A model generated the notes under the pieces. The model saw nothing but the letters and a program-made list of their open reading frames with translations, was not told the origin of the DNA and did not search any database. From Pseudomonas sp. MYb185 (GTDB taxonomy: Bacteria; Pseudomonadota; Gammaproteobacteria; Pseudomonadales; Pseudomonadaceae), in assembly GCF_002979975.1 (NCBI RefSeq), contig NZ_PCQD01000008.1, positions 62,001-126,000 on the forward strand: 64,000 bases of DNA. Reading direction: 5' to 3'. Below are positions 3,977 to 16,572 of this stretch, one piece after another. The position numbers were made by a program, and so were the translations under genes. How positions within the stretch are numbered: the first letter of the stretch is position 1; every line of letters starts with the position of its first letter.

Positions 3977-4834
3977 ATGAAATTCATGTTGATGCGCAAA
4001 GCGGACGAGGAAACCGAAAAAGGCACCCTGCCATCGGCCGAGGTCCTGCAGGCCATGCACGCCTACAACGAGCGCATGATCCAGGCAGGTATCTTCCTGT
4101 TCGGCAATGGCGTAAGGCCCACCAGCGAAGGTTGTCGTATCGTCTTTCGCAACGGAGAAGCCAGTGTTATCCGCGGCCCCTTCTCCCCCACCTCGGACCA
4201 ACTGGCCGGCTATTCGGTACTGGAAGTGGACTCCCTGGAAGAGGCCATCGACTGGGCCAGGCAATGGCCACGCGAGGACAGCGATGGCAACACTACCCTG
4301 GAGTTGCGCCGCTACTTCGAGCTGAGCGATTTCAATCTCGATGCTGCGCTCACGGATAAGCATCAGCGTCAGATGCAACTGCCGATGGAGCTGAACATTC
4401 ATCTGTCATTTCCCGGTAACTGCCGTGAAGCCATGACCTTCTACCAGCAAGTCACCGGCGGCGTTCTGGAAGCCATGATCCCTTATGCCGAGACACCCGC
4501 CGCAACGGAAGTGCCGGCCGAGCAGGCCGACCGGATCATCCATGCCTCGCTGAACATCCGCGGCCGGCGCCTGATGGCAGCGGACATGAACGGCGACTGC
4601 CATCAGGCAATGCAAGGTAGCTGTGTCCACCTGGAATTCGACAGCCTCGAACGCGCCGCCGAGGTGTTCGATCAACTGCAACAGGGCGGCCAGCTCATCA
4701 TGCCCTTTGAAGAAACCTTCTGGGCCAAACGCTTCGGCATGACCACCGACCGCTTCGGTACCCACTGGATGATCGGTTACGGTACCGGTCATTGTCCCCA
4801 GGCTCTCAACACAGAGGAGGTTAACGCTCCATGA
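3977..4834 (+). CDS. DGPF/YCII-domain and VOC-domain fusion protein
   Basis: The 285-residue product joins two small alpha/beta domains. Residues 1-120 form a YCII-related DGPF domain (start MKFMLMRKADEETEKG; the motif appears as IRGPFSPTSDQLAGY). Residues 136-275 form a PhnB-type VOC (glyoxalase/bleomycin-resistance fold) domain (LNIHLSFPGNCREAMTFYQQ; ending FGTHWMIGYG). It lies 89 bases downstream of the ECF sigma gene and overlaps the next DGPF gene by 4 bases (ATGA). Such proteins are the usual partners of ECF42 sigma factors, but no catalytic activity is established. The start has the ribosome site GAGGAG upstream. The fusion rather than two separate genes is the notable point. Confidence 0.88.
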   Translation: MKFMLMRKADEETEKGTLPSAEVLQAMHAYNERMIQAGIFLFGNGVRPTSEGCRIVFRNGEASVIRGPFSPTSDQLAGYSVLEVDSLEEAIDWARQWPREDSDGNTTLELRRYFELSDFNLDAALTDKHQRQMQLPMELNIHLSFPGNCREAMTFYQQVTGGVLEAMIPYAETPAATEVPAEQADRIIHASLNIRGRRLMAADMNGDCHQAMQGSCVHLEFDSLERAAEVFDQLQQGGQLIMPFEETFWAKRFGMTTDRFGTHWMIGYGTGHCPQALNTEEVNAP

Positions 4835-5190
4835 AATATGTCGCACTGGTGTACTACCAGGAAAGTCTCATTGAAGCCATGACCGAGCAGGAGTGGCACG
4901 ACCTCAACCAGGAATGCATCGCAGGGGTCGAACGGCTGTGCGCCGAGGGGAAGTACATCAGCGGTCAGCCACTGCAACCGGTGACAACGGCCACCACGGT
5001 CCGGGTGCGCAACGGGGAAACGCTGATTACCGATGGCCCCTTTGCCGAAACCAAGGAACAACTGGCCGGCTTCTACCTGCTCGATGCCACCAACCTGGAC
5101 GAAGCCCTCCAGCTCGCCAGTCGCATTCCTCCGGCGCGCCTCGGCAGCATCGAAGTACGGCCCGCCCGGGAATTACCAGCCAAAGACTGA
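4831..5190 (+). CDS. YCII-related DGPF-domain protein
   Basis: A 119-residue protein with the family core and the diagnostic motif TDGPFAETKEQLAGFYLL at about residues 67-84. It is translated from ATG 4831 inside the 3' end of the fusion gene (ATGA overlap), with GAGG as its ribosome site. DGPF proteins have a dimeric ferredoxin-like fold; their substrate is unknown, but they are co-conserved with ECF42 sigma factors and probably belong to their regulon. Confidence 0.9.
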   Translation: MKYVALVYYQESLIEAMTEQEWHDLNQECIAGVERLCAEGKYISGQPLQPVTTATTVRVRNGETLITDGPFAETKEQLAGFYLLDATNLDEALQLASRIPPARLGSIEVRPARELPAKD

Positions 5191-6867: not shown

Positions 6868-6881
6868 AAATCACCTGTTGC

Positions 6882-7103
6882 CTAATGATGAAAGGTGGCT
6901 ACGTATAGCCTTTCAACCTTGTCTCTTGCCCACTGGGTTCTGCGCAGGAACTTCAAGGAAGATTTGATTGACTGATCCTTCTTGAAGCAGTTGATATCGA
7001 TCCGCTGAGCCAAACCATCCCAGCCATAGTGACTTTCCAACCTGGTGACGATCTGCTCGAGCGTGACACCGTGCAACGGGTCACGCGGGTTTTCATTACT
7101 CAT
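6882..7103 (-). CDS. VF530 family (DUF2132) DNA-binding protein, copy 1
   Basis: The 73-residue protein matches the VF530 family end to end: [60 protein letters not shown]. The family has a compact helical fold with a proposed double-stranded DNA-binding role. A paralogue lies at 14720-14950, and only scattered residues differ. It is upstream of, and close to, the Gly-rich membrane protein. Confidence 0.93.
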   Translation of the reverse strand: MSNENPRDPLHGVTLEQIVTRLESHYGWDGLAQRIDINCFKKDQSIKSSLKFLRRTQWARDKVERLYVATFHH

Positions 7104-12984: not shown

Positions 12985-14392
12985 GCTGGCAGGTATCTTT
13001 TCGATGGCAGCGCTGCTCAGTGCCTGCGCCGTAGGCCCGGATTATCAGCCTCCTGAGCCAGTACAGCTGGAGCAGTTTGCCCACGATCAGGCAACCACAG
13101 ATGCTGCCGGAGCGGCGCTGGAACGCAACGAACAGCAGTTCTGGCAAGGCTTTGCCGACCCCCTGTTGGCCGACCTGATCAAGCAAACCATGGCCGACAA
13201 CCAGAGCCTGCAGGCTGCCCTGGCCCGCTATCAGGAAGCTGAAGCCCTGCTGCGCGGCTCGCGCCGGGATCAGTTACCCAGCGTCACCGCCGGTGCCAAT
13301 GTTGCCGGCCAACGCCTGGCAGAAGTGGAGCGCACTCAGCCGGGTCAGGAGCGAGTGGAGTTATACCAGGCCGGTGTCGCGCTCAGTTGGGAACTGGACC
13401 TGTTCGGGCGGCTGCGCCGCGCCACCGAGGCCAGCGAAGCACAGTTGCAGGCCGCCGGTGCAGACCAGCAGACACTGCAGGTTGCGCTCGCCGGCCTGAT
13501 GGCCAGCAGCTACTTCCAGCTCCGCGGCCTGCAACAGCAACTGCGGGTAGCCGAGGAGAACGTCAGCCTGCAGCAGGCCTCGCTGGATATCGTCAGCGCA
13601 CGACTGGAAGCCGGCCGCGGCACCCTGTTCGATCAGGTGCGGGCCCGCGCCCAGCTGGATGCCACCCGGGCAGAGATACCCCAGCTCAAAGCCGACATAG
13701 GCGCCGCCATGCACCGCATCGGCGTACTGACCGGCCAGACACCCACCGCACTGGTTTCCCTGCTTGAAGTCCCTGCGGACCTACCGGACAGTCGGCCGTC
13801 CATTGCGGCAGGCAGCCCCGGTGATGTACTGCGCCGCCGCCCGGATATCCAGGCCGCTGAACGGCGACTGGCCGCAGCCAACGCCCGCATCGGCATCGCT
13901 ACCGCCGACCTGTTCCCCCGCTTCACCCTAGGTGCCCTGCTCGGCTCCCTGGCCGGCACCGGGTCAGACCTCTTGACCGGCGGCGCCCAAACCGGGCGCG
14001 TCGCCTTGGGTATCGACTGGTCCTTTCTTGATCGGGCCATGGTTCAGGCACGCATAGACGCCGCCGACGCCCGCTACGCAGAACTGCTCGCCGACTACCG
14101 GCAGACAGTGCTGCTGGCACTGGAAGAAACAGAAACCTGGCTGCTGCGCTACCAGCAATCCCACGAACGCACAGCGTTGCTGCAAAGCGCCACCGACGCC
14201 GCCACCCAGGCCGTGGAGCAGGCGCGCGACCGTTATGATCAGGGCTTTATCGGCTACTTCGAGCTGTTGGCAGCGGAGCAGGAATTGACCGCCATGCGGG
14301 ATAACCTGGTGCAGAGCCAGACAGCCATGGTGCTGGCGATGGTGAATGTGTATCGGGCATTGGCTGGGGCACCGGTGCCGTCAAGCGTATGA
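12977..14392 (+). CDS. Outer-membrane efflux channel lipoprotein, NodT/OprN-type
   Basis: The 471-residue TolC-like channel of the RND system. It has a lipoprotein signal (LLSAC, Cys17), the conserved VGPDYQPPE after it, and two OEP repeats (LSWELDLFGRLRRATEAS; then VLRRRPDIQAAERRLAAANARIGIATADLFPRFTL). ATG 12977, preceded by GAAGGAG, was chosen because the lipoprotein signal begins there; it overlaps the pump stop by 8 bases, so the two are translationally coupled. This is the last gene of the operon. Confidence 0.95.
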   Translation: MSKLAGIFSMAALLSACAVGPDYQPPEPVQLEQFAHDQATTDAAGAALERNEQQFWQGFADPLLADLIKQTMADNQSLQAALARYQEAEALLRGSRRDQLPSVTAGANVAGQRLAEVERTQPGQERVELYQAGVALSWELDLFGRLRRATEASEAQLQAAGADQQTLQVALAGLMASSYFQLRGLQQQLRVAEENVSLQQASLDIVSARLEAGRGTLFDQVRARAQLDATRAEIPQLKADIGAAMHRIGVLTGQTPTALVSLLEVPADLPDSRPSIAAGSPGDVLRRRPDIQAAERRLAAANARIGIATADLFPRFTLGALLGSLAGTGSDLLTGGAQTGRVALGIDWSFLDRAMVQARIDAADARYAELLADYRQTVLLALEETETWLLRYQQSHERTALLQSATDAATQAVEQARDRYDQGFIGYFELLAAEQELTAMRDNLVQSQTAMVLAMVNVYRALAGAPVPSSV

Positions 14393-14523
14393 TCTGTGGA
14401 ACTCCAGACTACCCGGGCGCACCTCAAGCTTCCGATGCTTCATCTGCACTTCCGATCCATGCGCCAGAGCCGCCTTCCACCTTGGCACCTTCTTCGTAGC
14501 GACTTGCATTGGGCAGGGAGTTA

Positions 14524-14545
14524 CATTTTTATGCGCGTAAAAATG
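14524..14545. promoter_or_regulatory. Palindrome copy 1 (CATTTTTA-N6-TAAAAATG)
   Basis: A 22-base palindrome with 10 of 11 pairs matched (mismatch 14532/14537) and the core TGCGCG. It is identical to the second copy 32 bases further on. Paired sites at this spacing, about three helical turns, suggest cooperative binding by a dimeric regulator. Confidence 0.55.
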
Positions 14546-14555
14546 GATAAATTCA

Positions 14556-14577
14556 CATTTTTATGCGCGTAAAAATG
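14556..14577. promoter_or_regulatory. Palindrome copy 2 (CATTTTTA-N6-TAAAAATG)
   Basis: Identical to copy 1 over 22 bases, and extendable by one further matched pair on each side (14555-14578). No gene start lies within 150 bases on either strand, so its regulated gene may have been lost. Confidence 0.55.
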
Positions 14578-14719
14578 TACGGTACAGGTTGTTTACCCTC
14601 CGAGGTGCCGCTGTACTTTGTGCAATATGTCGTCGGTGAACATTTGAAGTGATATCGCACAAACGCACGGCTTTGCTGCAAAGCGCCAGCTCTCTCCAAT
14701 TACAAACGCCTGCCCAGGC

Positions 14720-14950
14720 TTAGTAAGCCTTACCGTGAAAGGTTGAAACATACAGTTTCTCTACCTTGTCCCGGGCCCATTGGGTCTTACGCAAAAACTT
14801 CAGGGATGATTTGATTGACTGATCATTCTTGAAGCAGTTGATATCGACCCGCAGAGCCAGGCCGTCCCAACCGTAGTGGCCTTGCAACCGGGTAACAACC
14901 TGCTCCAGCGTGACGCCATGCAAGGGATCGTTCGATCTTTGTTCAGTCAT
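14720..14950 (-). CDS. VF530 family (DUF2132) DNA-binding protein, copy 2
   Basis: A 76-residue paralogue of the 6882-7103 protein, with [20 protein letters not shown] and [20 protein letters not shown] conserved. Its ATG lies 7 bases after the stop of the restored CBS reading frame, so the two genes were probably an operon. Two copies 8 kb apart on the same strand suggest an old local duplication. Confidence 0.93.
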
Positions 14951-14957
14951 CTGTTCC

Positions 14958-15309
14958 TCACTCCGAGGCGGCTGCAGCGTTGCCTGCTCGGACTATTTCA
15001 ATCAGTGCATTCAGTGCATCAGTAGCCGTAAAGATCTCCAGCAGTGTGACCGTCCCCATCCTTGATGATCACACTGCCAACCCTTCTCTCCGACATGAGA
15101 TACGCCACCTCATCCGGCGGCGTGTCTGCAGTCACGCACAGCGGATCAGCCGCCATGATATCGGAAGCCCGCACCTGAAACTTCTCCGCAGCACCAAAAC
15201 CCGAGAAAAGCCGCACCGTCCGCGGTGCGTCAAGCCGACTCTCGCGGTGCAATCTTTTGTGCAGTCCGGCATTAGCGAAGCGGCAAACTCTGAGCTTTAA
15301 TTGACACAA
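14958..15309 (-). pseudogene. CBS-domain protein, frameshifted
   Basis: The frame encodes one CBS unit (VRASDIMAADPLCVTADTPP, VAYLMSERRVGSVIIKDG) and then stops at 15019 after GHTAGDLYGY. Shifting by one base near 15030-15040 restores the expected ending ([18 protein letters not shown]) and carries the frame to a TGA at 14958-14960, 7 bases before the VF530 ATG. So a single inserted base, or a sequencing error, splits a CBS protein. CBS modules normally bind adenosyl ligands. The N-terminal 40 residues are unlike a second CBS unit. The call of a frameshift is strong; whether it is real or an error is open. Confidence 0.75.
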
Positions 15310-15797: not shown

Positions 15798-16166
15798 TCA
15801 CTCGACCTGTGCATCACTGTATATCTCCACCCGCAATCCATGCTCCCGGGACTCAGCATAAGCACAAAGGTCCGCCATCAACTGAATCCAGTCTGCCAGA
15901 TCAGCTTTATCCACCTCCGCCGCGCCATCAATTGAAAAACGCCAGAGCGCAGGTGCTGTTAGCTGATCCACCTCATCAAGCAACAGGTCATAGGCCGCAT
16001 CCCAGTTTCCACCGAAATAATCCGGAAAACGGAAGGACTCGCTGAGCGCCCGCAGCAGGGTCGACTTGTTCAGCTTGTTACCTGCATCCAGCGCGATGGC
16101 CGGTTGATCAAGCTGGCCCCTGGGCCACCAGGTGATTGCCGCTGGCTGGCTGGCTGCTGTGCTCAT
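15798..16166 (-). CDS. Barstar-family ribonuclease inhibitor
   Basis: The 122-residue protein matches barstar: a strand then helix beginning NKSTLLRALSESFRFPDYFGGNWDAAYDLLLD, which corresponds to the barnase-binding helix 2 region, and a C-terminal strand (LRVEIYS). It would bind and inhibit the adjacent secreted ribonuclease inside the producing cell. ATG 16166 follows the ribonuclease stop after one base (TGAGATG), giving tight coupling. Confidence 0.9.
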   Translation of the reverse strand: MSTAASQPAAITWWPRGQLDQPAIALDAGNKLNKSTLLRALSESFRFPDYFGGNWDAAYDLLLDEVDQLTAPALWRFSIDGAAEVDKADLADWIQLMADLCAYAESREHGLRVEIYSDAQVE

Positions 16167-16167
16167 C

Positions 16168-16572
16168 TCAGTGCCCCTTGATGCGGGTGAAGGAACGGTA
16201 ATGATCCTCCGTGTAATAGAACTCCACAGGCGGATTGCCACCCGTCACCACTCGCCGCGGGCCACGGTGTGATAAGCCCGGCGTGTCCACCGTGTATTCC
16301 CGGTAGTACCCCCTCGGCTTGATCGGCAACAGCCGTTCCCGATTTTCAAAGGTGATGCCATCACGCTGGTAGGGAAACGGCCCATTCCGACTAATCCGCT
16401 CCAGCGTGTTGTGCAGCTGCTGGTCCTGCGCCGACAGCTGCGAGTGGTTGGCAGAGCCGGACTGAGTAAGGCCGGCGCCATCAAGCAAGCCATCGAGATG
16501 CCCACCCTGCTGAAGCTGGAACAGGCCAAAAGCGAAGGCCAGAACAAGTAGAATTTTCTTCACGGTATGCAC
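16168..16572 (-). CDS. Secreted guanyl-specific ribonuclease (RNase Sa/barnase family)
   Basis: The 134-residue protein has an N-terminal signal peptide (residues 1-22) and a C-terminal microbial RNase domain very like RNase Sa: YREYTVDTPGLSHRGPRRVV, then YYTEDHYRSFTRI. The expected catalytic residues are present: Glu92, Arg106/107 and His124. It would cleave RNA after G by transesterification, outside the cytoplasm. The barstar gene directly follows. Known members are extracellular RNases or toxin domains; here the enzyme is stand-alone with its immunity protein. Confidence 0.92.
   Translation of the reverse strand: MHTVKKILLVLAFAFGLFQLQQGGHLDGLLDGAGLTQSGSANHSQLSAQDQQLHNTLERISRNGPFPYQRDGITFENRERLLPIKPRGYYREYTVDTPGLSHRGPRRVVTGGNPPVEFYYTEDHYRSFTRIKGH

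Follow-up and report, generated by a model that had tools for sequence, protein, structure and literature searches.

Introduction

PDC-S01, which PADLOC lists as a phage-defence candidate, ranks fourth in frequency among the defence types of all prokaryotes and combines an ATPase domain with a fused PD-(D/E)XK member, according to the available passages of the account that describes it, in which validation is pending for most candidates of this kind (PMC12988326). The available part of a second account finds PDC-S01 to be very common in rumen genomes (PMC13356809). The locus described here resembles PDC-S01 in that the gene found behind the same paired site elsewhere matches PDC-S01 profiles over nearly its own whole length and in that the C-terminal end of such a gene appears to be kept; it differs in that the gene itself is lost, and in that the available passages of both accounts mention no control site (PMC12988326, PMC13356809).

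With regard to the control site, the closest published parallel that we found is RptR, which the available text presents as a stand-alone repressor that controls a defence island by way of short palindromes in repeats (PMC12255303). When the two systems are compared by description, the likeness lies in a gammaproteobacterial defence unit that is, or in our case would be, repressed via at least two palindromic sites, which lie across the promoter and move together with it; according to the available account, RptR is encoded by its own small repressor gene, and its 6-bp palindromes (TAGCTA) form part of 9-bp repeats that cover the -10 box (PMC12255303). Unlike the RptR sites, the pair described here is made of 22-24-bp palindromes that lie 32 bp apart, is located upstream of a likely -10 box and was not seen with a regular regulator neighbour. 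Tandem 16-bp palindromes about three helical turns apart are also found 5' of the promoter at nrd genes, where they form the NrdR boxes. These boxes are like the pair in their tandem layout and unlike it in sequence, in their 16-bp length and in fronting nrd genes and not an ATPase gene.

Two identical palindromes lie between convergent genes

The window, which is the whole stretch of 64,000 nucleotides from Pseudomonas sp. MYb185 that was analysed, contains an exact CATTTTTA-N6-TAAAAATG palindrome at 14524-14545 and a second one at 14556-14577, with a start-to-start distance of 32 bp. Identity between the two copies extends over 23 nt (14523-14545 against 14555-14577), and the palindrome core TGCGCG is a near-palindrome in its own right. 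The region comprises the following features.

14393..14715, no strand: segment between convergent genes, absent from the sister genome G007 (sequence comparison)
14524..14545, no strand: palindrome 1, putative outer operator copy (CATTTTTATGCGCGTAAAAATG), resembling paired sites 5' of PDC-S01 genes
14556..14577, no strand: palindrome 2, putative gene-side operator copy (CATTTTTATGCGCGTAAAAATG), 32 bp from copy 1
14578..14604, plus strand: short stretch, presumed former site of the lost gene's promoter region, with no promoter-like match left (position taken from intact loci, former content presumed)
14605..14652, plus strand: putative PDC-S01 ATPase gene remnant, last 15 codons (VPLYFVQYVVGEHLK) and stop TGA (C-terminus comparison)
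14654..14688, plus strand: 35-bp fragment like RND outer-membrane gene interior, matching window 14158-14192 at 89% and one place of the same-genus genome G008 at 97%

On the left, an RND-type outer-membrane gene (plus strand) ends at 14392, and on the right a VF530 gene (14720-14950, minus strand) has its 3' end at 14720; the neighbours are thus convergent and leave the pair without an adjacent target gene. Both the twin identical palindromes and the lack of a target gene, which an earlier note on this DNA had reported, were therefore borne out. The whole window holds no further copy of the palindrome at up to three mismatches (expected 0.06), and two matches occurred in 0 of 100 shuffled windows. 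In the genome-wide motif search that had been suggested in the same note, the pair is unique in the assembly (4.1 Mb, 30 contigs), with 0 further places at 0-2 mismatches and three places at three mismatches, and in many other genomes it fronts PDC-S01 ATPase genes. The shorter core TTTTNNGCGCNNAAAA has no exact match elsewhere in the genome and three at one mismatch.

Three further features of the window were recorded. A second VF530-like copy (6879-7100, minus strand) is 77% to 14720-14950 and contains an in-frame TAG; an ORF at 15019-15309 (minus strand) matches positions 1-44 of 57 of the CBS domain only and possibly represents a truncated CBS protein; and a predicted ribonuclease (PF00545) beside a barstar-like inhibitor (PF01337) at 15798-16241 and 16168-16572 (minus strand) constitutes a barnase-barstar-type pair.

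The pair precedes PDC-S01 ATPase genes in other genomes

When 194 genomes (the own genome and relatives) were searched for the palindrome with at most one mismatch, the same core was detected in several distant members of the order, and in the loci read it was mostly paired, 32 bp apart. Directly downstream of the site, four of the seven loci read more widely encode an ATPase of about 440 aa, which contains the Pfam domains AAA_14 (PF13173) and DUF4143 (PF13635), as seen in four proteins. PADLOC identified the ATPase as PDC-S01 with a near whole-length profile match (E 5.7e-121), an assignment that applies to three homologous proteins and not to the window itself. We scanned genome_contigs, with one genome per species and 84,980 species, for the paired pattern with intact palindromes and obtained at least 118 stretches and at least 80 loci, nearly all listed loci being Gammaproteobacteria by their titles. 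The start of an ATPase gene adjoins the site in 61 of the 80 loci listed, with the gene reading away from it. The whole gene is spanned by 53 of these 61 loci (at least two of which, L062 and L073, have a disrupted reading frame), seven are cut by the locus end and one, L129, is 3'-truncated, with the first 384 ATPase codons present and the last 55 missing. The other 19 listed loci comprise one with the C-terminus alone (L122, Marinomonas gallaica) and 18 with no ATPase gene.

A motif-independent test, in which 293 genomes of the order were searched with the ATPase protein, yielded 27 matches in 25 genomes. All of the 13 closest matches (at least 57% identity, rounded) carry the site within 400 bp upstream at up to two mismatches, and 12 of them carry the pair. 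Among the 14 more distant homologues, which include a C-terminal fragment (L231) and an N-terminally incomplete match (L232), 13 have no site at up to two mismatches and one (L225) has two sites farther upstream; we counted the 13 against the reading of the window pair as an orphaned operator. Outside this sample, E. coli E14 and an Acinetobacter plasmid have the same pair approximately 70-105 bp 5' of the gene, and a Vibrio plasmid has one site only, at up to two mismatches. The gene was present in 4 of 5426 E. coli genomes in a near-identity search with the Pectobacterium copy as query, and its neighbourhood in E14 includes genes with the annotations MADS MAD1 and type I restriction. An ATPase homologue was found in 53 plasmid records (two of them examined), in 4 of 120 genomes in a phylum-wide family search and, as seven distant homologues with 25-35% identity, in phage records. 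As a separate observation, Oceanospirillum linum (L114) carries at 4438-5049, just 5' of the intact copy, an additional ATPase fragment confined to the C-terminal part (residues 236-439, 83%).

The relationship between site and ATPase was also followed into diverged members by searching de novo for palindromes in tandem at a distance of 31-34 bp, where a result was taken as significant when at most 1 in 100 resampled sequences was as good. This search covered 71 of the 73 collected loci, most of them motif-found, two with short or unread upstream sequence being omitted. It was significant in all 56 loci with an ATPase of at least 57% identity, with a spacing of 32 in 54 and of 33 in two. For 15 more distant ATPases, eight loci gave 0/100, three gave 0.05 and four were not significant, and in several of the more distant loci the arms CACTTTTA...TAAAAGTG were kept and the core was changed. 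That the core changes while arms and spacing stay in diverged ATPases suggests that the site tracks the ATPase.

A related tandem motif, with cores such as TTTTGTGCGCATAAAA and copies 30 bp apart, was seen in viral contigs (L273 14611-14656, L274 9790-9835 and L276 87-132). None of the five stretches with palindrome-like pairs in viral contigs contained the ATPase by tblastn, and this motif is possibly an unrelated operator.

The layout of intact loci suggests repression

The -10 box was surveyed in 58 of the 73 loci, namely those with a near-exact palindrome upstream, many of which are close relatives. In 40 of these 58 loci (22% in shuffles) the interval 5-30 nt beyond the last palindrome core contains a TATAAT-like box with at most one mismatch, and in 33 of the 40 the box has the same position, some 9 nt beyond the palindrome edge. 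Since this arrangement places the gene-side palindrome over the -35 region, repression appears, from the sequence layout, to be the likeliest role of the pair in intact loci. We infer that the palindromes are bound by protein. In intact loci, a dimeric DNA-binding protein would occupy each palindrome, the distance of three helical turns would favour cooperative binding on one face of the helix, and occupation of the gene-side palindrome over the -35 region would keep the ATPase gene off until a trigger, perhaps phage infection, is received. The regulator could be the ATPase itself, whose model has a winged-helix-like middle part and whose gene was not seen with any recurrent regulator gene as neighbour; the other candidate is a host repressor encoded elsewhere in the genome.

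The AlphaFold2 model of the ATPase (mean pLDDT 89.8, pTM 0.89) consists of an AAA part, a winged-helix-like middle (helix-helix-helix-strand-strand) and a C-terminal alpha/beta part. When residues 1-325 were compared by structure, the first matches were 2qen (Z 16.5, rmsd 4.7, 273 aligned) and 2fna (Z 15.2, rmsd 4.3, 268 aligned), both archaeal AAA+ ATPases, followed by CED-4 and plant NLR proteins, and the Foldseek ranking was led by ORC, CED-4 and Cdc6/Orc1 chains. The structure matches scarcely extended into the PD-(D/E)XK part of the model. A sequence search of solved structures gave seven entries, which were five midasin chains, a helicase loader and a guanylate kinase, and an NCBIfam search with the ATPase gave no match. 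A winged helix can bind DNA, and in CED-4 and NLR proteins it need not. Given that the winged helix of the model may or may not bind DNA, autoregulation by the ATPase is possible.

The window retains a putative remnant of the ATPase gene

The remnant starts 27 bp past the second palindrome, in the orientation and order expected of the gene, and its VPLYFVQYVVGEHLK-stop resembles ATPase C-termini such as IPLYFAEFAVNKHLKS-stop in Shewanella sairae. When scored against 43 C-termini it reached 55, the best value in the window, with the next place at 33, compared with a top score of 42 in 40 synthetic windows of equal composition. A C-terminal profile ranked the remnant first of 2542 segments, yet at just 9.0 bits, and a full-length profile ranked it sixth in the window at 0.4 bits; its shortness (15 codons) and these low profile scores were counted against the reading of a lost gene. 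Compared with intact loci, the window thus contains the paired palindrome with TTTTNNGCGCNNAAAA cores at a spacing of about 32 bp and, behind the gene-side palindrome, PDC-S01 coding sequence as a remnant only. The -10 box beyond the gene-side palindrome is missing, there being no promoter-like match in 14380-14960, as expected for a decayed copy.

No full-length copy of the PDC-S01 ATPase was found in the own genome by protein search, in which the control G179 was recovered, and an AAA_14 search of this genome gave nothing over the family cut-off and four weak matches below it. Protein searches of the same genus found the ATPase gene in 0 of 37 genomes, with the positive control (G179) only in a separate search. 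The sister genome G007 is approximately 97% identical on both flanks and has 29 unmatched bp between them versus 323 in the window, which indicates that the place is polymorphic among close relatives. For the window, of which an 11-kb piece was compared, no intact partner with matching flanks on both sides was found.

We consider it highly probable that the window pair is an orphaned cis-regulatory site, a putative operator, of a lost single-gene unit of the PDC-S01 type encoding an AAA_14/DUF4143 ATPase-nuclease. In the lineage of the window the promoter and about 425 codons would have been deleted, with the operator and the C-terminus left behind. The earlier proposal of the operator of a lost operon is accordingly well supported in its main point: the linkage of the pair to PDC-S01, the C-terminal remnant and the failure to find a full copy in the genome all argue for an operator-like site of a lost unit, but this unit would have been a single gene and not an operon.

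Orphan loci and alternative explanations

Orphan sites in other genomes bear on how the window pair came about. We compared 24 orphan stretches, the window included, with intact loci, and for 12 of the 24 an intact partner with flanks matching on both sides was available. In 10 of these 12, by the best-ranked pairing, the homology on the site side breaks off at the palindrome's gene-side edge or 1 bp away from it.

hipA-island group with the edge at the palindrome: L048, L056, L075, L103, L108
Methyltransferase group with the edge at the palindrome: L057, L063, L246, L248
Aliidiomarina with the edge at the palindrome: L127 (96% to L088 over 3.7 kb)

L097 shows the edge as well if its second-ranked pairing is used, and L107 does so when compared separately with L117. 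This sharp boundary would be explained if the pair were a boundary or docking site, at whose gene-side edge a PDC-S01 cassette of promoter and gene is repeatedly gained, lost or swapped, the window being an emptied dock; it also fits the finding that, among the 20 listed loci in which the gene is lost wholly or partly, the N-terminal part is kept in L129 alone. The intact loci of the hipA-island group and of Aliidiomarina also have this edge as the end of homology; those of the methyltransferase group carry one extra palindrome towards the gene. However, several loci share one event by descent, so that the 10 loci amount to about three independent groups, and the scan itself required intact palindromes. 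The homology restarts 5-51 bp past the ATPase stop after an unmatched filler of 41-77 bp, which clean excision would not be expected to leave (L108 is an exception, with its best right-hand matches 1.3-2.3 kb past the stop, although in a separate comparison with L083 it restarts 22 bp past the stop). Moreover, the C-terminal remnants in the window, in L122 and, weakly, in L093, together with the 3'-truncated gene of L129, point to ordinary deletion, no recombinase gene was seen travelling with the ATPase gene, and a shared edge could mark the difference between two old alleles. On balance we regard a docking site as very unlikely. The stricter version, in which the pair is a fixed dock for base-pair-precise gain and loss of the ATPase-nuclease, possibly by its own AAA and PD-(D/E)XK domains, and orphan pairs are vacant docks and not dead relics, strikes us as highly improbable.

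A different question is whether the palindromes serve more than the ATPase gene. Loci with a PEMT/ICMT-like methyltransferase in Rheinheimera-type genomes were collected with the methyltransferase as query, without use of the palindrome (n=30). The ATPase is present in 13 of them, all 13 with at least one upstream site at up to one mismatch; the 17 without it, the more distant of which are perhaps another place, have the pair in seven, a single copy in three and neither in seven. Across six ATPase-less loci with the pair retained, identity within the palindromes is 95%, versus 57% for the sequence upstream, 65% for that downstream and 79% for the first codons of the methyltransferase. These six were picked for keeping the pair, so the constraint is overstated, yet it exceeds what simple decay predicts, and no ATPase was found in the four of their genomes that were searched. 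Such persistence of the palindromes counts against the ATPase as sole binder and fits another regulator or a second role. A conserved host transcription factor could thus bind the palindromes and serve host genes too, in which case the window orphan may still function. Consistent with this, no full-length ATPase was found at E up to 1e-10 in any of 20 genomes that have a site with no full gene beside it (G000, G009, G077, G114 and 16 orphan-locus genomes, L058 and L093 being omitted), the genome of L122 having the C-terminal fragment only and the control G179 being found. On the other hand, the pair occurs once in its own genome, no second gene family lies regularly behind it (21 loci, by eye), and the core changes with diverged ATPases while arms and spacing stay, all of which makes a host factor of this kind unlikely in our view. 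Hardly any credence is left for an RNA hairpin, a terminator or a small RNA between the convergent genes: a transcript would fold into a 24-bp stem (z -6.2) and the location between two gene 3' ends would suit it, but any two identical palindromes yield such a stem, and intact loci have the site upstream of the likely promoter. Positions 14380-14960 contain no promoter-like (sigma-70-like) or terminator-like match, and no Rfam family reached its gathering score in the window. With the palindromes upstream of the likely -10 box in intact loci, the small RNA promoter that had been suggested earlier finds no support in these results.

Three candidates were tried and rejected. An intrinsic terminator, recognised as a G+C-rich stem followed by a T run, was not found in 14380-14960. 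A hipBA operator was considered because a Cro-type/HipA-like gene pair lies approximately 215-260 bp from the palindromes in L056, L072, L075, L103 and L108, but intact loci place the ATPase on the opposite side of the pair; L108 gives a clear HipA_C match (E 1.9e-52), with its small gene falling slightly short of the HTH_26 cut-off, and the other four hipBA-like loci were named by eye. A MITE common to two MAGs (L058, L093) proved to be a match of 1480 bp of ordinary synteny and not a short repeat.

In six loci (L238, L239, L246, L248, L250 and L251) the pair persists 5' of the PEMT/ICMT-like gene, mostly at 33 bp spacing and with no ATPase, and in such Rheinheimera-type loci it may now serve the methyltransferase gene.

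Discussion

We favour the interpretation that the window pair is the orphaned operator of a lost PDC-S01-type gene. A search within open access, a scope outside which most subscription journals and bioRxiv preprints fall, found no description of the paired site, and matches to the core sequence in this literature were limited to the shortest 12-mer. Operators of defence genes are a known kind of site; an operator family of PDC-S01 genes looks new within the literature searched. As a conserved paired putative operator for the gammaproteobacterial PDC-S01 branch, the site would provide a handle on the regulator of these genes and on the trigger. The motif also marks places of gene loss, and gain and loss of PDC-S01 would thus be traceable from DNA alone.
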